Part shown: one piece after another, positions 2,725 to 64,000 of the stretch | Numbering within the stretch: the first letter of the stretch is position 1 | Layout of the letters: every line of letters begins with the position of its first letter | Source of the DNA: Hoeflea sp. YIM 152468 | GTDB lineage: Bacteria > Pseudomonadota > Alphaproteobacteria > Rhizobiales > Rhizobiaceae | Assembly: GCF_029210485.1 (NCBI RefSeq) | Contig: NZ_JARGET010000005.1 | Location: forward strand, 186,001 to 250,000 | Direction: 5' to 3' | DNA: 64,000 bases | Made by a program: the position numbers and the translations under genes | Notes under the pieces: model-generated | Databases searched by the model: none | What the model saw: only the letters and a program-made list of their open reading frames with translations | What the model was told of the DNA's origin: nothing

Positions 2725-3012
2725 TTACGGGTCGTCCTTGAGCCGTTTTGCCAGGTCCTCGTAGTCGTCCTTTTCGAGATAGCGCAGTTCACGGATGATC
2801 CGCAGTACCGGTTTGAGCGCAAAGCAGATGGAGCCGATCAGGAAACACCAGGTGCCGACTTTTTGCCACTCCTCGAAGAAGAACATCACCGAGCCAATGA
2901 CAAAAAGACCGGCGGCGCAAACATCCACGGCAGTGTAGGCGAGCTCAAACCAGGCATAGTATCGCTCGTCGGAGACATATTTGCGGTGCCTTGACAGTTT
3001 GAAGAGTGCCAT
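2725..3012 (-). CDS. YrhK-like small membrane protein
   Basis: A 95-residue protein with two predicted membrane helices (about residues 27-45 and 53-70) joined by a short charged turn, ending in the conserved stretch CFALKPVLRIIREL and a charged tail. This matches the YrhK domain, of unknown function. A paralogue with the same core lies at 59854-60132. The gene is 44 bases upstream of, and on the same strand as, the preceding reading direction of ctaA, whose stop is at 3057; it could be co-transcribed after ctaA. There is no evidence here for a specific role. Confidence 0.8.
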   Translation of the reverse strand: MALFKLSRHRKYVSDERYYAWFELAYTAVDVCAAGLFVIGSVMFFFEEWQKVGTWCFLIGSICFALKPVLRIIRELRYLEKDDYEDLAKRLKDDP

Positions 3013-53281: not shown

Positions 53282-54433
53282 ATGGACATGATTACAACAA
53301 CCGAGGCGCTTGCCGCCTTTTGTGCCCGCCTTGCCAGCCACGACTATGTCACCGTTGACACCGAGTTCCTGCGTGAGACGACGTATTGGCCCGAGCTCTG
53401 CCTTATCCAGATGGCCGGACCGGAGGACGAAGGTATTGTCGATCCTCAGGCCGATGGCATTGATCTTAAACCATTTTTTGACCTGATGGCAGACGCCTCG
53501 GTGACCAAGGTGTTTCATGCCGCGCGTCAGGATATCGAAATCGTCGTCAAGCTCGGCGATCTGGTGCCGCACCCGATTTTCGACACGCAGGTCGCGGCAA
53601 TGGTCTGCGGATTCGGCGAATCAATTTCCTATGACCAGCTGGTTTCCCGGATCACCGGCGCATCCATCGACAAGTCGTCGCGGTTTACCGACTGGAGCCG
53701 CCGACCGTTGAGCGACAAGCAACTTGATTATGCGCTCGCCGATGTCACCCATCTGCGCGACGTCTATCTCGAACTTGTCACCCGCCTCGAGACGGAAAAC
53801 CGCCGTCACTGGGTGAACGACGAGATGGCAGTGCTGGAATCGCGCGCCACCTATGAAATCAAGCCCGAAGACGCCTGGAAGCGGTTGAAAATGCGGGTAA
53901 AGAAGCCGATCGAGCTCTGTGTGCTTCAACACGTGGCGGCGTGGCGCGAACGCGAGGCGAAGAGCCGCAATGTTCCGCGCGGCCGGGTGATCAAGGACGA
54001 TGCGATCTATGAAATCGCACAGCAGCAGCCCAAGGACAGTGAAGCGCTGTCCCGACTTCGCACAATTCCGCGCGGCTTCGAGCGCTCGGCTCAGGGCGCC
54101 AAGCTTATCGAGCTCGTGAACACGGCGCTGCAAACGCCGAAGGACGACCTGCCGCGTCTGCCACGTCAACGGCAGACGCCCGAAGGCGCACAGGCAGCCG
54201 TGGAGCTGTTGCGGGTGCTGCTCAAGCTGACGGTCGAGAAGGAAAATGTCGCGGCCAAGATCATTGCGACCTCGGATGATCTTGAGTCCATCGCCATCGA
54301 TGGCGATGCCGCTGATGTCGCGGCGCTGAAGGGCTGGCGCAAGGAACTGTTCGGCGATCAGGCGCTCAAGCTCATTCGTGGCGAGGTGGCGCTCAGGTTT
54401 GCTGACAAGAAGGTCGAAGCGCTCGAACTTTAG
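53282..54433 (+). CDS. rnd: Ribonuclease D
   Basis: 3'-5' exoribonuclease maturing tRNA and other small RNAs. The 383-residue protein carries the DEDDy exonuclease motifs: [10 protein letters not shown] (DTE), [10 protein letters not shown] and [15 protein letters not shown] (Y-x3-D), all within the first 170 residues, followed by an HRDC-type helical domain ([29 protein letters not shown]). In many rhizobia rnd is near ppx and ppk; here about 8.9 kb of accessory sequence separates rnd from ppx. Confidence 0.95.
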
Positions 54434-54447
54434 GGGGCTTGTCTTCG

Positions 54448-55743
54448 TCAGCTGTACAGGTCGGCCCGGGTCGGCGGCAGGCCCGCCGGCCCCCGCCTCA
54501 CCCGAGTTGTCACCGTCTGGTAAAGCCGCACCGTGTTGCGCTCGAAGGCGATCGAACAGCCGCCGAGATAGACCAGCCAGAGCCGTGTCTTGACCTCGCC
54601 GACCTCGGCCACGGCAGCGTCGTAATTGGCGAGCAGCCGGTCGTGCCAGAGCTTGCAGGTGCGCTGATAATGTTCGCGCCAGTTTTCCACATCGTGAACC
54701 TCGAAGCCGTGCTGTTCCAAGTTCATCACGGTGTTGCCGATGTGATCGAGCTCGCCGCCGGGAAAGATGTATTTGGTCAGCAGCGCGAATTCCCTGTTCT
54801 TCTTGCGGAAGGTCTTGGCATCCTTTTTGGCAGGTCTGGTGATGGCGTGATGCAGATAGATACCCTCGGGCTTTAGCACCCGGGCAATGGTTGCGTAATA
54901 GGTCGGGTAATTGTCGATGCCGATGGCTTCATGCATGCCGATCGAGGAAATCTTGTCGAACCGGCCTTCCACCTTGGCATAATCGAGCAGGATGAAATTG
55001 ACGCGATCCGACAATCCAAGCTGATCGGCCCTGGCTCTGGCAAATTCCAGCTGGCGCACGGACAGCGTGACGCCGGTGACATGGACGCCATAATTGGCCG
55101 CCGCATAGAGCGCCAGAGAGCCCCATCCGAAGCCGATATCGAGCATGGTTTGGCCAGGTTTCAGCCGCAGTTTCCGGCAGATCATCTCCAGCTTGTCGCG
55201 TTGCAACTGGTGGATATCATTGTCCCAATCGGTGCAATAGCCGCAGGTGTAGACCATCTGATCGTCAAGAAACAGCTCATAGAATGCGTTGGAAACATCA
55301 TAGTGATAGGCGATGTTCTTCCGGTTTTCCTCGGCATTGCCGTCGGAAGGTCTCTCCTCGGGCTGGTCGCTCAACGGCCACGGGCCGCCCTTGTCCACGA
55401 ATAGAAATTTGCGCAGCGTGTTGAACACCTGAAATTTGCTGAGCTGTTTTCTAATTTCGCGCGTGCGCACCTTGGGCCGCCGCGCCACCAGATCGAACAT
55501 GTCGCCGTTTTCGAAATCGATCCGTTTTGATACCCATAAATTCAGCAGGGTTTCGGGATTTGGAGAGCGCAACAGCGCGGCAACCAGCCCTTCGTCGGCC
55601 AAACGGATCGTAAACGCCTTGGGGTCCAGATCCTCGGGCACTGTCGAGCCGTCCCAGAGCCGGAAGCCAATATCCAGTTCAAGGATGCTCCGCGCATGGG
55701 TCACGAGTTTGCGGAAGCTCTTCAACCGGCTTTGTGCTGTCAA
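54448..55743 (-). CDS. Cyclopropane-fatty-acyl-phospholipid synthase family methyltransferase
   Basis: A 431-residue SAM-dependent enzyme of the CFA synthase family that modifies double bonds of membrane phospholipids. It has an N-terminal lipid-binding region (about residues 20-130), then the Rossmann methyltransferase with YHYDVSNAFYELFLDD, YTCGYC, LDIGFGWGSLA (SAM site) and the SIGMHEAIG and FPGGELDHIG blocks. A TTG at 55743 is taken as the start because AAAGGA lies nine bases upstream and the duplicate of this 5' end at 60362 has the same TTG. It is convergent with rnd. Its first 45 or so codons are duplicated in the chimera at 60141-60362. Confidence 0.9.
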   Translation of the reverse strand: MTAQSRLKSFRKLVTHARSILELDIGFRLWDGSTVPEDLDPKAFTIRLADEGLVAALLRSPNPETLLNLWVSKRIDFENGDMFDLVARRPKVRTREIRKQLSKFQVFNTLRKFLFVDKGGPWPLSDQPEERPSDGNAEENRKNIAYHYDVSNAFYELFLDDQMVYTCGYCTDWDNDIHQLQRDKLEMICRKLRLKPGQTMLDIGFGWGSLALYAAANYGVHVTGVTLSVRQLEFARARADQLGLSDRVNFILLDYAKVEGRFDKISSIGMHEAIGIDNYPTYYATIARVLKPEGIYLHHAITRPAKKDAKTFRKKNREFALLTKYIFPGGELDHIGNTVMNLEQHGFEVHDVENWREHYQRTCKLWHDRLLANYDAAVAEVGEVKTRLWLVYLGGCSIAFERNTVRLYQTVTTRVRRGPAGLPPTRADLYS

Positions 55744-55994
55744 AACATCAATTCCTTTGATGGTGCATAGGCTGATCACGACAGATCTCGTTAGAGGCAA
55801 GACTATTCGCTTGCGGTAGAAAACACCATCGCCGACAGCATTTCACTGAATGACAATATCGCGATTCCACGCCTGCTGTGAGCTTCGTTGCCAAGTTTGC
55901 AACGCTGTCCACAGTGCCCTGAGGATCGGAAATGGCGCCAAAGGGCTGACCCGGTGGGACTTGGGCCCGGAACCCGGACCAGACTTCATTCGAT

Positions 55995-56023
55995 TTGACA
56001 ACATACCAACCAGTTGGTATGTG
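55995..56023 (+). promoter_or_regulatory. Promoter with embedded TetR-type operator
   Basis: A TTGACA -35 box (55995-56000) and a TATGTG -10 box (56018-56023) are 17 bases apart. The spacer and the -10 box hold ACATACCAAC-CA-GTTGGTATGT (56001-56022), a perfect 10-base-arm palindrome. It lies 22 bases before the TetR start, so the repressor probably blocks its own operon. Confidence 0.75.
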
Positions 56024-56043
56024 ATTCACCAAAAGGAATTGTC

Positions 56044-56664
56044 ATGCAAGCACGATCACCCCAGGCGAAAGAAAAACTGCTCACTTCCGCCTTGTCGGTC
56101 ATCCGGACAAAAGGCTATTCGGGCACCACGGTTGATGAGCTCTGCGCCGCCGCCGGTGTAACCAAGGGGGCATTTTTCCATCACTTCAAGAGCAAGGAAG
56201 CGCTGGGCATTGCCGCCGCAGACTACTGGTCGGAATTCACCGGCGCGCTGTTTGCCTCGGCCCCCTATCACGACCATGCAGATCCGCTCGACCGGGTGCT
56301 TGCCTATATCGATTTCCGCCGCCTGCTGCTGTCGGGCGAGCTTCCCGATTACACCTGTCTGGTCGGAACCATGGTGCAGGAGACCTATCTGACCGCGCCT
56401 GCGATCCGAGATGCATGCCACGCCTCAATTGAAGGACATGCGCACACGCTTGCGCCCGACATTCAGGCAGCCATGGACGCGCGCGGCATGGATGACGCCG
56501 GCTGGACCGCAGAGAGCCTGGCGCTGCACACCCAGGTGGTGCTGCAGGGCGCCTTCATTCTCGCCAAGGCAGAAGACTCCGTTTCCGTCGCCATCGACAG
56601 CGTCGACCACCTCAAACGCTACGTGACACTGTTGTTCAACCAGCCAGTGGAGAAAGCCGCATGA
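56044..56664 (+). CDS. TetR/AcrR-family repressor
   Basis: A 206-residue regulator. The N-terminal helix-turn-helix is KEKLLTSALSVIRTKGYSGTTVDELCAAAGVTKGAFFHHFKSKE (about residues 9-55); the rest is a helical ligand-binding domain with a TetR_C-like end. The ATG at 56044 has AAGGAA six bases upstream. It overlaps the next gene by four bases (ATGA) and heads an operon of small detoxification-type genes. The operator at 56001-56022 indicates self-regulation. Confidence 0.92.
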   Translation: MQARSPQAKEKLLTSALSVIRTKGYSGTTVDELCAAAGVTKGAFFHHFKSKEALGIAAADYWSEFTGALFASAPYHDHADPLDRVLAYIDFRRLLLSGELPDYTCLVGTMVQETYLTAPAIRDACHASIEGHAHTLAPDIQAAMDARGMDDAGWTAESLALHTQVVLQGAFILAKAEDSVSVAIDSVDHLKRYVTLLFNQPVEKAA

Positions 56665-57086
56665 GCAGTTCTTCCGATTACAAACGCCTGATGCGAGGCG
56701 TGATCCCCTATGTCACCGTCGAGGGTGCCGAAAAGGCCATCGAGTTCTACACCCGTGCCTTCGGCGCCGTGCTGCATGGCGAGGTGGCCCGCAGTGAGGA
56801 CGGCCGGGTGCTCAACGCCAGTATCGAGATCAATGACGGAATGGTGATGCTGATGGACCCGTTTCCCGATCACGGAAGCGCCCCCTCATCGGGCAGCAAT
56901 TTTCTGCTGCAACTGGTGATCGCCGATGGAGATCTCTGGTGGGACCGCGCGGTCGGGGCCGGCTGCGAGGTGGTCTCGCCGCTCAAGCTTGAATTCTGGG
57001 GCGACCGTTTCGGACGGGTCCGTGACCCCTTCGGACTGGAATGGGCTTTCAACGAACCAGCAATCGAAAAGCAACGGGCCGGTTGA
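56661..57086 (+). CDS. VOC-family (PhnB/glyoxalase-like) protein
   Basis: A 141-residue protein with paired beta-alpha-beta-beta-beta modules of the VOC superfamily, closest to the PhnB type: VIPYVTVEGAEKAIEFYTRAFGAVLHG, then INDGMVMLMDP and a closing DRFGRVRDPFGLEWAF. VOC proteins include dioxygenases, isomerases and drug-binding proteins; the substrate is unknown. It is translationally coupled to tetR. Confidence 0.87.
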   Translation: MSSSSDYKRLMRGVIPYVTVEGAEKAIEFYTRAFGAVLHGEVARSEDGRVLNASIEINDGMVMLMDPFPDHGSAPSSGSNFLLQLVIADGDLWWDRAVGAGCEVVSPLKLEFWGDRFGRVRDPFGLEWAFNEPAIEKQRAG

Positions 57087-57113
57087 GCACCGGTCATTTC
57101 AAGGGAGGATGAC

Positions 57114-57809
57114 ATGAACAGGATTGTCGACGAGGCCGAATGGATGGAGGCCCATGCGCGCCAACTGGCACAGGAAAAGGCCGCCACCGAGGCATTGGAC
57201 CGCATTGCCGCCGATCGCCGGAGGCTGCCATGGCTCAGGGTCAAAAAGGACTACCGTTTCACCGGCCCGGCCGGAGGCACCGATCTTGAAGGCCTGTTCG
57301 AGGGCCGCAGCCAGCTGATCGTCTATCATCACATGCTCAAGCCGGCCGACCCTGCGCCGTGCGCCGGCTGCAGCATGTTCGGCGATCACATTCCGCATTT
57401 GGCCCATCTCAACGCCCGCGACGTGACACTCGCCTTCGTTGCACGGGCCCCGTCGCCGGAAATCGAACGCTACAAGCGACGCATGGGCTGGACCATGCCG
57501 TTCTACCAGAGCATTGACGGCTTCGGCGATGATTTCGGGATCGATGACGGTTTCGGCCTCAATGTCTTCCTGCGCACGGACCACGGCATCATGCGGACCT
57601 ACTACACCAGCTACCGTGGCGTGGAGATGCTGGGCACACCGATGGCGCTGCTCGACATCACTCCCTATGGCCGCCAGGAAACCTGGCAGGATGCGCCGGA
57701 AGGCGTGGCTCAGGATGCACCTTATCAATGGTGGCGGCGCCACGACGAATATGATGCGCAGCCATCCGCGCCGAGTGCCGCGCGCCGGCTTACCTCAGCG
57801 CAGGCCTGA
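57114..57809 (+). CDS. DUF899 thioredoxin-like protein
   Basis: A 231-residue protein of the DUF899 family, which has a thioredoxin-like fold. The signature PAPCAGCSMFGDHI (about residues 82-95) holds the cysteine pair, preceded by LFEGRSQLIVYHHML and followed by the VTLAFVARAP strand. The reaction catalysed is unknown. It is 27 bases after the VOC gene with GGGAGGA before the ATG, so part of the TetR operon. Confidence 0.87.
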   Translation: MNRIVDEAEWMEAHARQLAQEKAATEALDRIAADRRRLPWLRVKKDYRFTGPAGGTDLEGLFEGRSQLIVYHHMLKPADPAPCAGCSMFGDHIPHLAHLNARDVTLAFVARAPSPEIERYKRRMGWTMPFYQSIDGFGDDFGIDDGFGLNVFLRTDHGIMRTYYTSYRGVEMLGTPMALLDITPYGRQETWQDAPEGVAQDAPYQWWRRHDEYDAQPSAPSAARRLTSAQA

Positions 57810-57930
57810 CAGAAGGGTTGGACGGAGAATCAGGCCAAGGCCGATGCGGCGCCGAACTTCGACACCATCACCCCGTCACGCCGCCGCTGGTCCTGCGTGA
57901 CGCGGAGCACCAACCTCGAGGAGCACAAGC

Positions 57931-58161
57931 ATGAGTTTTCAGGCCTATCCTGATACCATCAAGGCAAAAACGGGAAAGACCCCGGACCAGCTCCGCCAGC
58001 TCGCGGAAACCCGCGGACTGCTCGAAGACCGCAAAGTCGCAAAGGGGGTGAAGGCCGGTGACGTGGTCGCATGACTGAAACAGGACTTTGATCTCGGCCG
58101 GGGCCACGCCATGGCGATCTGGGCGCTGTTTACAAACATCAAGCAGATGCCGGCCAAGTAG
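57931..58161 (+). pseudogene. DUF4287 gene with an internal TGA stop
   Basis: The frame from ATG 57931 encodes a typical DUF4287 protein (MSFQAYPDTIKAKTGKTPDQ, then EDRKVAKGVKAGDVVA). At codon 48 there is TGA (58072-58074) where the family has Trp. After it the same frame continues with LKQDFDLGRGHAMAIWAL and ends at TAG 58159-58161. One G-to-A change (TGG to TGA) explains it. The upstream GAGGAG-like site is intact. The rest of the sequence is well preserved, so the loss is recent or is a base-call error. The truncated product would be 47 residues. Confidence 0.85.
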
Positions 58162-58184
58162 CCAGGCTGAACGGGAGGACTATC

Positions 58185-59111
58185 ATGGGAAAACCCAATG
58201 GACATTCCAGGCAGATCATCACCCCCTTCCTCTGGTTTGACAGCCAGGCCGAGGAGGCGGCAAGGTTTTACACCGGCCTGTTTGCAAACAGCCGCATCAC
58301 TCACCTGAGCCACTACGGCGAGGAAGGCCGCGAGGTGCACGGCCAGCCGGCAGGCAAGGTGATGGTGGCGGGGTTCGAACTCGCCGGCCAGCGCTTTTCC
58401 GGTCTCAATGGCGGACCGGCTTTCAAACCGACTCCGGCGATCTCGTTGTTTGTCCAGTTCGACACCGAGGAAGAAGTCAATGCCTTGTGGGCCGGACTCA
58501 GCGACGGTGGCGCTGTGCTGATGCCGCTCGACAGCTATGGGTGGAGCACGCGCTATGGCTGGCTCAATGACCGCTACGGCGTGTCCTGGCAGATCATGCT
58601 GCGCCAGGAGCAAGATGGAGGTCAGACAATTACACCGGCGCTGATGTTCTCCGAGGTCAAGTACGGCCGCGCCGCGGAGGCAATTGCGCATTACACCGGC
58701 ATCTTTCCAGGATCCGCAACCGGACCGGTGCGGTATCGCGACGCGGCTGAGGGGGAAGACGCCGCTACGGTGCTGTTTGGCCACCTTACACTGTTCGGCC
58801 AGGAGTTCATCATCATGGACGCACCGGGGTCGCACGGTTTCAGATTCACCGAAGGCGTATCACTGATGGTGTCGTGCGAGACCCAGGCCGAGATCGACCG
58901 CTACTGGGACCAGCTCACCGCCGATGGCGGCCAGGCGAGCAAGTGCGGTTGGCTCAAAGACAAGTTTGGCGTTTCCTGGCAGATCACCCCGACCATCATG
59001 GAGCGGCTGATGGCGTCCAATGACCAGGCCACAGCCGACCGCCTGATGAAAGCAATGCTGACCATGGGCAAATTCGATATCACCGCACTGGTAGCGGCAG
59101 CCAGAGGTTAA
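58185..59111 (+). CDS. Two-domain VOC/PhnB-like protein (3-dmu-9_3-mt type)
   Basis: A 308-residue protein with two tandem VOC domains of the type often labelled 3-demethylubiquinone-9 3-methyltransferase, a label not supported by methyltransferase motifs. Domain 1 starts ITPFLWFDSQAEEAARFYTGLF (about residues 10-145), ending YGWLNDRYGVSWQIM. Domain 2 starts ITPALMFSEVKYGRAAEAIAHY (about 150-285), ending CGWLKDKFGVSWQI. The substrate is unknown. It is 23 bases after the DUF4287 frame in the TetR operon. Confidence 0.87.
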   Translation: MGKPNGHSRQIITPFLWFDSQAEEAARFYTGLFANSRITHLSHYGEEGREVHGQPAGKVMVAGFELAGQRFSGLNGGPAFKPTPAISLFVQFDTEEEVNALWAGLSDGGAVLMPLDSYGWSTRYGWLNDRYGVSWQIMLRQEQDGGQTITPALMFSEVKYGRAAEAIAHYTGIFPGSATGPVRYRDAAEGEDAATVLFGHLTLFGQEFIIMDAPGSHGFRFTEGVSLMVSCETQAEIDRYWDQLTADGGQASKCGWLKDKFGVSWQITPTIMERLMASNDQATADRLMKAMLTMGKFDITALVAAARG

Positions 59112-59129
59112 ACCAGAGAGGAGAGTAGC

Positions 59130-59483
59130 ATGGCATATGTGAGCGGGTTCATGGCGGCGGTGCCGAATGACAAAAAGCAGGATTATCTCGACATGGCCAA
59201 TATCGCAGCTGCGATATTCAAGGATCACGGCGCCACCCAGGTGGTCGAGGCATGGGGCGATGACGTCCCTGAGGGTAAACTGACCTCGATGCCGCTGGCG
59301 GTCCAGGCCAAAGACAACGAAACCGTGGTCTTCTCCTGGGTCTGGTGGCCCGACAAGGCAACCCAGACGGCAGGCATGGAAAAGGTGATGAAGGATTCGC
59401 GGATGAACTACGATCCGGAAACCATGCCGTTTGACGGCAAGCGCATGATCTACGGCGGTTTCGAGGTCATTCTCGACACTTAG
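59130..59483 (+). CDS. DUF1428 family protein
   Basis: A 117-residue protein of the DUF1428 family, a dimeric alpha-beta barrel fold of unknown function. Landmarks are YVSGFMAAVPNDKKQDYLDMA, the strongly conserved VVEAWGDDVPEGKLT, VVFSWVWWPDKATQ and MPFDGKRMIYGGFE at the C-terminus. GAGAGGAG lies eight bases before the ATG. It closes the TetR operon. Confidence 0.9.
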   Translation: MAYVSGFMAAVPNDKKQDYLDMANIAAAIFKDHGATQVVEAWGDDVPEGKLTSMPLAVQAKDNETVVFSWVWWPDKATQTAGMEKVMKDSRMNYDPETMPFDGKRMIYGGFEVILDT

Positions 59484-59613
59484 GATCAAGTGCAAAGCCC
59501 TTAGGGTCTTGCCATCCCGGGATGCGGTTACCCCTCCAGGCCCTATCCCGGGATGATGTCTTACGGAAATATCATTTCGTCTGCAGCCCCAAACAAACTT
59601 TGAGCGCTGGCCC

Positions 59614-59641
59614 TTGCATTGGGGAACGGATACCTTATATT
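59614..59641 (+). promoter_or_regulatory. Predicted promoter of candidate small RNA 2
   Basis: TTGCAT (59614-59619), 16-base spacer, TATATT (59636-59641). The block TTGNATTGGGG here also appears upstream of candidate small RNA 1 (13199-13209). Confidence 0.5.
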
Positions 59642-59647
59642 GGGATC

Positions 59648-59746
59648 AACAAAGAAATTTGTCTCCACCCTGACCACGGATGTACTGGCAGTGTGTGTAG
59701 AGGCAAGTCAGGAAGGTCGGTGCGAATTTCGCCCGGCCTTTTTCTT
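59648..59746 (+). ncRNA. Candidate trans-acting small RNA 2
   Basis: Orphan non-coding segment with a good promoter just upstream and a hairpin-plus-T-run end (AGGTCGGTGCGA...TCGCCCGGCC then TTTTT, 59714-59743). The core CCCTGAC-CA-CGGATGTAC-TG-GCAG (59668-59691) matches candidate 1 at 13254-13277 except at four internal positions. No open frame with a ribosome-binding site fits. It is probably a regulatory RNA of the rhizobial alpha-r type; family membership was not checked. Confidence 0.55.
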
Positions 59747-59853
59747 TGTTTAATCCTAATGTTTGTCGCATAGAAACGCCGTGACCGGTCAGACCCTTGC
59801 AGTCACTGACCATCGCCGCAACTCTGTCAACGACCCCAGGACACCAGGATCTC

Positions 59854-60132
59854 ATGGCCCTATTCCAGCAAGACAGCGCGACCCGGACGCCGCAACAACG
59901 CAAGCTCTACGCACTTTACGAACTCACCTACACCATCGTTGACGCGGCGGCGGCGCTGTTCTTTCTGGTCGGCTCGATCCTGTTTTTCTATCAGTCCCAG
60001 CAGGACCCGGCGATCTGGCTTTTCGTTATCGGCTCGGCCTGTTTTGCATTGAAGCCGGTGTTGCGTGTGGTCCGCGAATTTCATCTGCTCGCGCTCGGCG
60101 ACATCGATGACCTTGCCGCCCGCTACGAATAG
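59854..60132 (+). CDS. YrhK-like small membrane protein, second copy
   Basis: A 92-residue protein with two membrane helices (about residues 28-46 and 54-70) and the family stretch CFALKPVLRVVREF, nearly the same as CFALKPVLRIIREL in the gene at 2725-3012. The helices and spacing correspond closely; the termini differ. ATG 59854 gives the same start (MALF) as the paralogue. It is immediately left of the cfa-ppx chimera (eight bases between stops). Function unknown. Confidence 0.8.
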   Translation: MALFQQDSATRTPQQRKLYALYELTYTIVDAAAALFFLVGSILFFYQSQQDPAIWLFVIGSACFALKPVLRVVREFHLLALGDIDDLAARYE

Positions 60133-60140
60133 CTGACAGC

Positions 60141-60362
60141 TCAGCCGATCCTGAAGCCGAGGCGTTTGCCGGTCAGCTTTGCAAGCTGCTGCAGACGGCC
60201 CTCAAGCCGTTCGCCGACAAGCCGGATCGCAAAGCCGCCGGGATCGAGATCCTCGGGCACTGTCGAGCCGTCCCACAGCCGGAAGCCGATATCGAGATCA
60301 AGTATGCTGCGCGCATGGGTGAGAAGTTTACGGAAGCTCTTCAACCGGCTTTGTGCTGTCAA
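60141..60362 (-). pseudogene. Chimeric remnant: 5' end of the CFA-synthase gene fused in frame to the 3' end of ppx
   Basis: Read on the minus strand, codons 1-48 or so copy the N-terminus of the CFA-synthase-like protein (TAQSRLKSFRKLLTHARSIL, GSTVPEDLDP). The sequence then switches to the C-terminus of Ppx (GERLEGRLQQLAKLTGKRL) and the same stop. Bases 60160-60220 are identical to 63355-63415 in ppx. Bases 60221-60360 align without gaps to 55602-55741 at roughly 85% by eye, and the similarity continues about 90 bases upstream of the TTG. The frame is kept across the junction, so a 73-residue product is possible, but no functional domain is complete. Confidence 0.88.
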
Positions 60363-60380
60363 AACATGAATCCCTTTGAT

Positions 60381-61037
60381 GGGGCTGAGACTTGACCAAG
60401 ATGGATCAAGGTTGAGACAGACTAATTGCTCGCCGCAAAAAACACCATCGGGCATAAAAATCCAACTGAGCTTGGGTCAGCGGGTCCGGGACTTTCGCAC
60501 AGGGCAGTCAAGCATCGGGACCAGGTCGTGCAATGCACTCGGATCTGGTGGCGGGAGACGTGAAGGACTGCGAAACAATGCTGTTTGGCACGGTCAGCTC
60601 GACCGGTCGGCAGACACAAGAAAACAGCATGGTAAAGTCGGCGTCAGACTGCGCGGATGCAGCAGGATCGCGCAACCATACCGTTTGACCGCAAAACCGA
60701 TGGGTTTGGGGGCGGATCCCAAGTTCCTGTCGACGCGCCAGGGCCGGCAAACCTGATCCTCACCGCGCGTTCGATCTCAGATCAGTGCGCCAGCGTCAGG
60801 CTTCTCCTGATACCGCTGACAGCGGACGACCAAACCACAGGCCGGGATATGTGCACAATGCTGCCATCCAGCAATGCCAGACTGCCGAACTTCAGATCAC
60901 AGAACCTTGGACAGAGGACATCTATTGCGCCAAAGCCGGCAACCTCATCGGATGTGTTTCCGGCTTCAGCGACGTTACAATGGTCGCAACACATAGCACC
61001 AGCCCCTCGCTTGAAAATGCGAGTAGGTACAATTTAG
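60381..61037. other. Gene-free stretch after the chimera
   Basis: About 660 bases. The first 75 or so still resemble the region upstream of the CFA-synthase gene. Beyond that no frame on either strand shows family features or a good ribosome-binding site. It looks like decayed sequence. Confidence 0.5.
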
Positions 61038-61066
61038 TTCAAATTTTCAATACTTTAAGTTATAAT
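61038..61066 (+). promoter_or_regulatory. Predicted sigma-70-type promoter
   Basis: TTCAAA (61038-61043), 17-base spacer, TATAAT (61061-61066), in an unusually A/T-rich stretch. It points at the small secreted protein gene starting at 61150. Confidence 0.5.
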
Positions 61067-61092
61067 GTCGCGCCGTTTTCCTTGAGTAATGG

Positions 61093-61108
61093 TTAACAAT
61101 GTGTTAAC
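61093..61108. promoter_or_regulatory. Candidate CtrA-binding site 1
   Basis: TTAA-CAATGTG-TTAAC matches the full CtrA consensus TTAA-N7-TTAA(C) exactly. It lies 42 bases before the start codon of the secreted protein gene and about 20 bases after the predicted transcription start, a position more suited to repression unless a second promoter is used. Confidence 0.55.
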
Positions 61109-61149
61109 AACACTAGCCCCATGTTTGGGGGGAGTACAAGGAGCAAACA

Positions 61150-61488
61150 ATGATAGTCAAACTTACCTCAGCGTCATTGCTTTCTGTAATGGCCTTTTCT
61201 TTGGCAGTGACAGTGCCGATCCTTTCATCTGTGGATTCCGCGAGTGCGAAGACCTACACCACTCGGGAAAACATAAATCGCGACAAATGTTACCGTGTGA
61301 AGAAGGTACCGGCATTGGTCGAGTACAATACCCGCGGTATTAAGGTTCGCGATTCCTCGCGAAGCTGGACTGGAAACTTCGGCAAAAACGGCGGTATTGT
61401 TCGCGACAAATATCACCCAGATGTCTACATTCAGACCCGTCGCGTGCTTGAGGACGAACACACGACGTTGGTTCCGACATCTTGCTGA
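61150..61488 (+). CDS. Small secreted hypothetical protein (112 aa)
   Basis: Begins with a clear signal peptide (MIVKLTSASLLSVMAFSLAV, cleavage after SVDSASA near residue 33). The mature part is about 79 residues, strongly basic, with two cysteines (DKCYRV and the C-terminal TSC) that could form a disulphide. No known family. AAGGAG stands six bases before the ATG. A stem-loop follows the stop and another exported protein comes next on the same strand. Confidence 0.75.
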   Translation: MIVKLTSASLLSVMAFSLAVTVPILSSVDSASAKTYTTRENINRDKCYRVKKVPALVEYNTRGIKVRDSSRSWTGNFGKNGGIVRDKYHPDVYIQTRRVLEDEHTTLVPTSC

Positions 61489-61544: not shown

Positions 61545-62048
61545 ATGGTACGCCTCAATGCAATTGCCAGTGGTATTTTCGGCCTGCTTGTCACAAGCGC
61601 GCCGGTGTCGGCGACCGACTTCACCGAGTTGAGCCTGTTTTTTGCGTCCTCTGCCACAATCCAGGCCGACGGCATGCAAGTGAGCACCAACGCGCCAACG
61701 TTGCAGGACAATGCCGTGCTCTCACCGGAAGATGTGTTCAAAGTCGCGTCAATTTCCAGTTCAACCTCTCAGCCGGGCGGACTGTTCAGGAATACGGAAC
61801 TGGTTGTGAATATTCACAGCGCCTCTGATGACATCGCCCACACAGAGGTTCTGCATCACTGCACATCCCTGGATTTGGTCAATGACTCGAGCATGTTCGG
61901 ACTGAGCGCTGAATGTGACCGGCAGAGATTTTCCTACTCGGTCAACGGCCACACCATTGTCATCTTGAAAAACGACAAGATTTTCAGGGAGTATGAGCTG
62001 GAAACCGGAAATTACATGATCAATGGGTATCCAGTGATCTTCAATTGA
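61545..62048 (+). CDS. Exported hypothetical protein (167 aa)
   Basis: A signal peptide (LNAIASGIFGLLVTSAPVSA, cleavage about residue 23) precedes a 144-residue mature domain that looks beta-rich (TELVVNIHSASDDIAHTEVL, RFSYSVNGHTIVILKNDKIF), with two cysteines (HHCTSL and AECDRQ). No family recognised. AAAAGGGG precedes the ATG by about eight bases. The 3' end overlaps the convergent lipoprotein gene by eight bases. Confidence 0.72.
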   Translation: MVRLNAIASGIFGLLVTSAPVSATDFTELSLFFASSATIQADGMQVSTNAPTLQDNAVLSPEDVFKVASISSSTSQPGGLFRNTELVVNIHSASDDIAHTEVLHHCTSLDLVNDSSMFGLSAECDRQRFSYSVNGHTIVILKNDKIFREYELETGNYMINGYPVIFN

Positions 62049-62349
62049 GGTTTCTGTTCCTGGCCATGTACTCAAACAGACCGAGTACATGGCTCGAAAT
62101 CTCGTCCGGCCGGTTTCGGCGCGATTGCCCGACGTTGGTGCTGTATCTGAGATCCTGGCCGCTTTCACAGATCTCATCAAAAGGGAGTCCCTCTTCATAG
62201 CGAATGAAGCACCAGCCTCGCTGGTAGGGATAGGCGACCAGGATTTCCTGCTTGCCTGAATAGCCGAATGATGTCAGCCCGCCACCAGAAGTGCTGGCAC
62301 ATCCCGACGTTATCAGAATGACGAAAAGTACGGCCCAGCGAGTCACCAT
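62041..62349 (-). CDS. Small lipoprotein (102 aa)
   Basis: The signal peptide ends with the lipobox ITSGCAST (cysteine at about residue 17), followed by a Gly/Ser linker and a compact domain with two further cysteines (RGWCFIRYEEG and DEICESG). No family recognised. A perfect AAGGAGA lies six bases before the ATG. A candidate CtrA site is 40 bases upstream. It is convergent with the exported-protein gene. Confidence 0.72.
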   Translation of the reverse strand: MVTRWAVLFVILITSGCASTSGGGLTSFGYSGKQEILVAYPYQRGWCFIRYEEGLPFDEICESGQDLRYSTNVGQSRRNRPDEISSHVLGLFEYMARNRNLN

Positions 62350-62886: not shown

Positions 62887-63246
62887 ATGGCCACGTACCA
62901 CGAATTCGACGACAAGGCTGTCGCAGCCGCGATCCAGGCCGCAAGCGACTTTTATGCCGAGAAAGGCATGACAAAAGAAGGCGCGAGAACCGATCTGGCT
63001 GATGACGGCCACATGAACATTGCGGCGCAGTGCATCTCTGTAACGGTCGACAATGGAAAGATCTGCCTCAACCTGCCGCTTGGAATTGGCAAGATCTGCC
63101 TTCCGATACCCTCGATCTTTCCCAACGGCACTGCCGCGGAAGCTTGTCTGAGCATTTGCACCACCTGGCACATTCCAACCGGTGTGAAGGTTACCGTCAG
63201 CATCGCGGGCAAGGTCATTGTTACCAAGTCATTCGGCAAATGCTGA
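62887..63246 (+). CDS. Cysteine-rich hypothetical protein (119 aa)
   Basis: No signal peptide (starts MATYHEFDDKAVAAAIQAAS). An N-terminal helical acidic part (residues 1-45) precedes a beta-type C-terminal part with six cysteines (QCISV, KICLNL, KICLPI, ACLSICTT, GKC-end) and an internal near-repeat, GKICL. The spacing does not match a zinc finger or ferredoxin I know. GGGAGAAG lies six bases before the ATG. It could be a leaderless secreted or redox-active protein; function unknown. Confidence 0.65.
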   Translation: MATYHEFDDKAVAAAIQAASDFYAEKGMTKEGARTDLADDGHMNIAAQCISVTVDNGKICLNLPLGIGKICLPIPSIFPNGTAAEACLSICTTWHIPTGVKVTVSIAGKVIVTKSFGKC

Positions 63247-63335: not shown

Positions 63336-64000
63336 TCAGCCAACCCTGAAGGCCAGGCGTTTGCCGGTCAGCTTTGCAAGCTGCTGCAGACGGCCCTCAA
63401 GCCGTTCGCCGACAAACGCCTCACACGACCGCGGCACCTTGAGGACGATATCGACATCGCCGTCCGCTGCGACGGCAGGCGCAAATTCGAGTTGCGGCAC
63501 CATGCCCGGCATCGAAGCCGAAAACAGATAGACCACCCGCAACATTCCACCGAGCAGTTTGGCATAGTCGAGGTATTTGGTCCCGGCTATCGCAGCAAGA
63601 TCCGATGAGGTGCCATCGTCATTGAGGCCTTCAAAGCGGAAGTAATTGGCCAGCGCAATATAGGCGCGGCCACCATGACTGATACCGGTAAACGTGCCGT
63701 TGGCGATGATGTTGAGCGCCTGCGAGCCGCGATAATCGGGATGGGCGCGCCAGGAGATATCGGCCAGCAGACAGGCCGCCTGCCGGTAGCGGGCGTCCTC
63801 GGCGCTTTCATTCACACCGAAAACGGGGAACATGCGCCCTGTCCAGGCAGCCAGTTCGCGCGCGTGCTCGGGTGAGCGGGCACGCAGGATCGCCAACTCT
63901 GCGGCAGCGGACAGCAGTGGATCGCTTGCCGCCTCCGCAGCCCCGAGCAGCGAGTACAGATATCCCTCGCGAACACCAAGCGCAGAGAAACTGACCCGCT
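63336..64000 (-). CDS. ppx: Exopolyphosphatase (Ppx/GppA), C-terminal part, runs off window
   Basis: The reverse strand encodes the C-terminal half of a Ppx/GppA phosphatase: RVSFSALGVREGYLYSLL, the family motif at the end of the catalytic core, then an HD-type helical domain (WTGRMFPVFG, ACLLADISWRAHPDYRG, GISHGGRAYIALANYFRFEG). It ends in RLQQLAKLTGKRLAFRVG. About 221 residues are visible of roughly 500. Ppx removes terminal phosphate from polyphosphate; ppk would be expected upstream, outside the window. Its last 61 identical bases recur at 60160-60220. Confidence 0.92.
   Translation of the reverse strand, partial: RVSFSALGVREGYLYSLLGAAEAASDPLLSAAAELAILRARSPEHARELAAWTGRMFPVFGVNESAEDARYRQAACLLADISWRAHPDYRGSQALNIIANGTFTGISHGGRAYIALANYFRFEGLNDDGTSSDLAAIAGTKYLDYAKLLGGMLRVVYLFSASMPGMVPQLEFAPAVAADGDVDIVLKVPRSCEAFVGERLEGRLQQLAKLTGKRLAFRVG

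Follow-up and report, generated by a model that had tools for sequence, protein, structure and literature searches.

Between two tandem cfa-to-ppx intervals in Hoeflea sp. YIM 152468 stands a short chimera that joins the 3' end of ppx (exopolyphosphatase) to the 5' end and leader of cfa (cyclopropane synthase). The order of the parts at the joint, with ppx interior on the left and cfa interior on the right, intact cfa farther left and intact ppx farther right, is that of a tandem-duplication joint. In our estimate there is about an even chance that the chimera is the scar of a young joint, made by off-register recombination between two versions of the cfa-ppx interval that had already diverged from each other. 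The stretch of DNA analysed (64,000 nucleotides, hereafter the window) lies within a 384,964-base contig of a 4.27-Mb genome in 40 contigs (completeness 99.9, contamination 0). The features of the locus are collected in Table 1. A first-pass annotation of the same DNA had recognized the joint order, the two copied parts and the surviving reading frame, and all of these stand.

Table 1. Features of the rnd-cfa-ppx locus, in window coordinates
Feature	Position	Strand	Remark
rnd (ribonuclease D-like: DNA_pol_A_exo1 + HRDC), left anchor of the locus	53282..54433	+	
Intact cfa (CMAS-family cyclopropane synthase)	54448..55743	-	start TTG 55741-55743, aligned with relatives' starts
cfa leader	55744..55833	-	alike to chimera leader
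Left interval genes (type A): tetR, glyoxalase, DUF899, DUF4287-like, PhnB-like double domain, DUF1428	56014..59483	+	
Alphaproteobacterial sRNA ar35 (Rfam RF02346)	59639..59747	+	52.5 bits, gathering 45
YrhK-like ORF	59854..60132	+	ends 8 bases before the chimera stop codon
Chimera, ppx 3' part (25 residues + stop)	60141..60220	-	95% to 63336-63415
Junction patch, cfa alike to ppx in the same frame	60198..60221	-	16/24 bases
Chimera, cfa 5' part (47 codons, 60222-60362)	60221..60362	-	86.5% to own cfa; dS 0.48, dN 0.066
Chimera, cfa leader part	60363..60452	-	alignment with own cfa leader
Decayed, frameshifted DUF1428 remnant, right interval	about 60490..60745	+	firm core 60538-60694; outer limits by eye
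Right interval genes (type B), ORF 1	61150..61488	+	
Right interval genes (type B), ORF 2	61545..62048	+	
Right interval genes (type B), ORF 3	62041..62349	-	
ORF C, right interval	62887..63246	+	
Intact ppx, 3' part in the window	63336..64000	-	gene complete past the window edge, 1527 nt, open frame

The two parts of the chimera are copies of the two genes that bound the intervals. The ppx part agrees with the 3' end of intact ppx at 76 of 80 bases; all four mismatches fall within the 19 bases adjoining the stop codon, and the next 61 bases are exact. The right part follows the 5' end and upstream region of cfa to about 60450: 60205-60392 matches 55586-55773 (84% over 188 nt), a second match joins 60419-60450 to 55800-55831 (81%), and as a single gapped match the similarity extends over 249 columns at 81.5%. 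With E-values of 1.5e-60 for the cfa part and 1.3e-29 for the ppx part, chance similarity is excluded. The leaders of the chimera and of the genome's own cfa (90 bases) have 66 identities, 23 mismatches and 2 gap positions, and none of 12 other aligned cfa leaders resembles the leader common to these two. Taken together, the cfa half and leader of the chimera are nearest to the own cfa (86.5%), the best other relative being G014 at 75.2%, with G002 at 72.3%. The own genome holds only three matches to cfa 5' or ppx 3' DNA.

The frame of the chimera is open and the ppx and cfa parts are joined in frame. It reads 104 aa from ATG 60455, and 73 aa, free of stops and frameshifts, from an alternative start, TTG 60360-60362, at the aligned position of relatives' cfa starts. 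Because indels separate the two leaders, the extra 31 upstream codons are not a conserved frame, and the 73-residue reading is the sensible one. It consists of 47 cyclopropane synthase residues, one junction residue and the last 25 residues of exopolyphosphatase. The likeness of cfa and ppx to each other at the junction patch (Table 1) keeps the joint from being placed to the base. This likeness is imperfect and is not a long exact run; with 40 neighbouring windows allowed for, its P value is 0.001 for any diagonal under random placements and 0.003 for in-frame diagonals. It would account for both the site and the frame of the joint.

The left interval spans 55.8-60.1 kb and the right interval 60.45-63.3 kb. 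The names DUF4287 and PhnB are presumptive ones for two of the type A genes; the Pfam domains in the PhnB-like gene are 3-dmu-9_3-mt and Glyoxalase. The DUF4287-like gene (57931-58164) has an in-frame TGA after codon 47; the codons ahead of this stop are 80-96% alike in G003, G011, G012 and G009. The placement of ar35 at the locus varies among relatives, G002 and G010 each having two copies or part-copies that flank cfa on both sides. YrhK-like matches occur in 23 of the 151 family genomes searched, own included, and a second copy lies elsewhere in the own genome (C36:188743-189012, window 2743-3012); at 14 family loci with YrhK homologues no rnd, cfa or ppx was present within the fetched flanks of up to ~1.5 kb.

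That the two intervals are tandem copies, as the first-pass annotation had held, is backed by a third collinear duplicate that it did not contain, namely the DUF1428 remnant of the right interval. A default repeat search between the intervals was empty, and we had considered the right interval unrelated to the left; this was overturned by a sensitive interval-to-interval comparison, in which the left-interval DUF1428 gene matches the firm core of the remnant over 159 columns (64%, 52.5 bits). Controls stayed lower: 60 shuffles reached at most 34.0 bits, and 12 other stretches of the window at most 29.7. Against the DUF1428 genes of the own genome and of G011 the core is 64-65% identical, and the remnant shifts frame midway. 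It can be called decayed because HMMER finds no Pfam domain in either of its pieces and tblastn with the DUF1428 protein yields only a 21-residue match (E 7e-4). The nearest copies are those of G011, the own genome and G003 (55.4, 52.5 and 48.3 bits), and at E 1e-3 the remnant was not found in the intervals of G002, G014, G010, G017 and G001. For the other type A features tested (tetR, glyoxalase, DUF899, PhnB-like, ar35) the best score against the right interval was 28.3 bits, no better than chance. The two intervals thus repeat cfa 5', DUF1428 and ppx 3' in one order, which gives the tandem layout good support.

Among the relatives searched, the joint is confined to this genome. We searched 61 genomes with chimera DNA, and 18 genomes of the genus (own and 17 congeners) with a 360-base chimera query; a protein search of GTDB r220 found 140 relatives, from which 79 named loci were kept. 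The full-length chimera occurs in the own genome only among the 18 genus genomes, 15 of the 17 congeners matching one or both parts at separate places and two giving no match. No other joint was found by DNA in the 61 genomes or in any of the 79 named loci, and a scan of 150 loci, among them these 79, returned the joint in just six, all of them overlapping loci from the own genome. The first-pass annotation had named a second copy of the interval in relatives as a check on its proposal; the comparison was made, and with the joint in none of the 17 congeners it speaks against an old duplication common to relatives. The usual order in relatives with cfa at the locus is mostly rnd forward, cfa reverse, a variable interval and ppx reverse. 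Congeners with cfa beside ppx have one such interval, of variable content, whereas the own genome has two in tandem.

The contents of the two intervals correspond to versions found in different relatives. The type A set, YrhK excepted, occupies the cfa-ppx interval of G003 and G011; G012 carries A without B or C, G007 has A with C, and two outgroup loci (L051 and L052) contain a partial A (tetR, a PhnB- or glyoxalase-like gene, DUF1428). The B block is found between cfa and ppx in G002. Its first and third ORFs, which were the ones searched, occur only in the own genome and G002 among the 18 genus genomes, and the second ORF is in the same G002 block; distant relatives of the first (35-42% identity) are present in three of 150 other family genomes. 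ORF C is found in the cfa-ppx interval of G014, in the rnd-cfa interval of G010 and next to ppx in G007. The cfa-ppx interval contains DUF1428 alone in G016 and none of the A, B or C genes in G017 and G001. Three consecutive DUF1428 genes stand beside ppx in G009 (L042 3410-4615). At the start of the right interval, 60440-61160 was matched among the 61 genomes, besides the own, only by G002 and only over its last 133 bases, so that the flank adjoining the chimera is private.

There are also signs of exchange between species at the locus. Identity to G011 is 94-98% in three type A genes, as against 82-87% in tetR, the PhnB-like gene, rnd, cfa and ppx, and it can be concluded that versions of the locus do move between species. 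Per 100 bases, identity to G011 is mostly 92-100% over 56600-58400 and 59000-59500, and about 72-90% over 56100-56600 and 58400-59000. Judged from these identities, the G011-like tracts would be the product of recent recombination between species, which makes the own DUF1428 gene unusable for dating the remnant. Gene trees (quick IQ-TREE for rnd, ppk, ppx and cfa, FastTree for aspS) place the own genome variously: with G003 and G011 for rnd and ppk (support 97 each), in a set with G002, G010, G012 and G014 for ppx (98), only in a poorly supported position for cfa (56), and with G016 for aspS (0.958). Constraining it to G003/G011 makes the ppx tree 12.5 log units worse and is not rejected (p-AU 0.107). 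A constraint to G002/G010 is rejected for rnd (p-AU 0.0002), though not for ppk (0.279) or cfa (0.347), and grouping with G016 is rejected for rnd, ppk and ppx, with a p-AU of 0.037 for cfa. These disagreements are hints only. A change point within ppx is weakly indicated (permutation p 0.062); such a mosaic, if real, would argue against a crossover only ~20 bases into ppx.

To what extent the joint can be called old depends on how its two halves have diverged. A comparison of 47 codons between the chimera and the own cfa gives 12.3 synonymous and 6.7 nonsynonymous changes (dN/dS 0.14). Had the chimera copy been free of selection since the split, about 28.7 nonsynonymous changes would be expected, on the assumption of an omega of 0.13 in the working copy; with the divergence shared equally by the two branches, P is 1.4e-6. 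It rises to 0.0003 if one third of the divergence is put on the chimera branch and to 0.0036 if one quarter is. A FastTree of 13 rows gives the chimera a branch of 0.114 and the own cfa one of 0.083 (pair support 0.968). Divergence of the leaders (23/89 aligned bases) is above the level of nonsynonymous sites. The ppx half has 2 synonymous and 2 nonsynonymous differences over 25 codons (dS 0.10). At the age of the cfa split it should show 13.4 differences with both sides constrained (P 0.003) or 24.7 with one side free (P 3.5e-7), against the 4 seen. These clock tests rest on 141 and 75 sites and suppose equal rates and an omega of 0.13; as a check on rates, the sister pair G002/G010 differs at 18/141 sites at the cfa end and 10/80 at the ppx end. 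With the chimera side taken as free, the age of the ppx half is 0.16 (0.04-0.42) of that of the cfa split, and under the stated assumptions this half looks several times younger. The contrast in identity had been noticed, as an oddity, in the first-pass annotation; on raw counts it is marginal (Fisher P 0.056 for synonymous sites and 0.069 for all sites), and it is strong only under the clock assumptions. The proposal that the joint itself is ancient is not supported by these data, the cfa half being constrained and the ppx half too similar under the same clock.

A recent joint between diverged versions would bring these observations together. One version would be cfa-[tetR...DUF1428-ar35]-ppx, and the other, from a sister lineage of the species, cfa-[decayed DUF1428]-[B genes]-[C]-ppx. 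Off-register recombination would have set both end to end, with the joint forming inside the short patch of chance in-frame likeness between cfa and ppx, and the fusion would be in frame because the joint arose there. The cfa half would be old yet look constrained because, before the joint, it was part of a working cfa allele, and the ppx half would be nearly unchanged because the joint is young. As the left intact cfa and the right intact ppx were kept, the cell would have retained both working genes while gaining a second set of interval genes. We infer another lineage as the source of the second version, and as its route of entry DNA uptake, or a transfer of that sort, combined with recombination of sister chromosomes. 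The genome has a ComEC-family gene; it says little on competence, because 10 of 14 control genomes, E. coli among them, have one as well. The costs of this explanation are an unsampled donor lineage and clocks that run on few sites. The donor from an unsampled sister lineage must be assumed because the cfa half and leader of the chimera are nearest to the own cfa and no sampled genome is the donor. Moreover, the closeness of the DUF1428 remnant to the G011, own and G003 copies, and its absence from the G002 interval, fit a purely local duplication equally well. Integration of a circle of the Campbell type was also considered; it would produce this layout too, but the 61 identical bases do not follow from it alone.

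Among explanations that keep the event local, the least improbable, although still unlikely in our view, is tandem duplication, in this lineage, of a segment that reached from inside cfa to inside ppx and held A, B and C, with reciprocal loss, the left copy keeping A and the right copy B and C, followed by selection on the fusion ORF and conversion of the ppx end. The collinear cfa 5', DUF1428 and ppx 3' sequences in both intervals, the nearness of the cfa half and leader to the own cfa, the constraint on the cfa half and the frame that stays open through 73 codons all agree with it. The price is three extra assumptions: an A+B+C ancestor, selection on a 47-residue piece of cfa and a 61-base conversion. 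A and B occur together in the interval of no mapped relative (G007 has A with C), and the only Pfam signal in the supposedly selected ORF comes from the ppx end and is below the cut-off (Ppx_C 24.5 vs 27 bits). Conversion by ppx, which the first-pass annotation had brought forward, could indeed make the ppx half look young. It is, however, not the only way to obtain such a half, since a young joint of diverged versions also fits and has no need of it. The original proposal of that annotation, a local tandem duplication whose whole right junction has been decaying freely with the frame surviving by luck, accounts for the layout and for the decay of DUF1428 in the same copy. We disfavour it and give it only a small chance: free decay predicts some four times the nonsynonymous changes observed in the cfa half, 73 codons next to a frameshifted DUF1428 remnant have passed without frameshift or stop, and the ppx half has diverged too little.

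Hardly more probable is a larger duplication or import that produced two complete cfa and ppx genes in tandem, with a long period in which both cfa copies worked, followed by a recent deletion from ppx copy 1 to cfa copy 2 at the patch. Deletion at short similarity is common, and such a course would account both for a young joint and for a constrained cfa half. On the other hand, the 20 kb around the locus (L045) contain no second complete cfa, rnd or ppx, there is no DNA match to cfa 5' or ppx 3' in the own genome beyond the three already mentioned, and the ppx 3' ends should have diverged as much as the cfa ends unless they were converted. That the assembler joined two co-occurring strains seems very improbable. 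The genome is in 40 contigs, and the identical 61-base stretch is long enough to confuse an assembler; nevertheless, the ppx/cfa joint itself is not a stretch common to two normal versions, and it lies well inside a long contig of a genome with the high completeness and zero contamination given above.

It is tempting to see in the fusion a working, selected 73-residue protein, born from a recombination scar and driven by the duplicated cfa leader, but we think this unlikely. As predicted from the sequence, the ORF may be expressed from the copied leader. The coding constraint lies on the cfa half and may predate the fusion, while the ppx half shows only the four differences described above, evenly split between synonymous and nonsynonymous. 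Most likely the fusion itself is without function.

If a joint between two diverged versions is the true explanation, two alternative forms of a variable interval can coexist side by side in one bacterium, without one having to replace the other. The locus would also be a datable example, with two halves of one scar carrying different clocks, and should more Hoeflea genomes show the parent versions, the event would be traceable step by step.

The scar neatly illustrates a type of rearrangement already known in genomes, and it is unlikely to be a new gene. The join point of an ordinary tandem duplication between sister chromosomes has the same order of parts as the Hoeflea chimera. Here, in contrast to such a duplication, the copies mostly differ in gene content and the cfa half had already diverged. 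Our literature search found nothing on Hoeflea with cyclopropane or exopolyphosphatase, and no close precedent among the matches listed, as judged by title and abstract opening. One likeness is to the merodiploids of natural transformation, which, as described by Johnston et al. (2013; PMC3784515), carry tandem copies with a hybrid joint; they arise when donor DNA bridges two arms of a replicating chromosome, and donor and recipient versions can both be kept. At the Hoeflea locus the content of the intervals matches versions of different species, and the ppx tree differs from those of rnd and ppk, yet without rejection of the G003/G011 placement (p-AU 0.107, as above). The merodiploid joints analysed there lie in repeats such as insertion sequences, with one small duplication without flanking repeats mentioned, whereas at the Hoeflea joint the likeness is short and imperfect, and a single genome is the source of the inference. 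A second likeness is to homology-facilitated illegitimate recombination, in which, according to Amarir-Bouhram et al. (2011; PMC3240628), foreign DNA is inserted with one homologous end and one joint at 3-10 bp of similarity, to be compared with the 16/24 bases at the Hoeflea joint. In the products described there, insertions and the accompanying deletions average 1 kb each, whereas the Hoeflea locus has gained several kb and kept both cfa and ppx.
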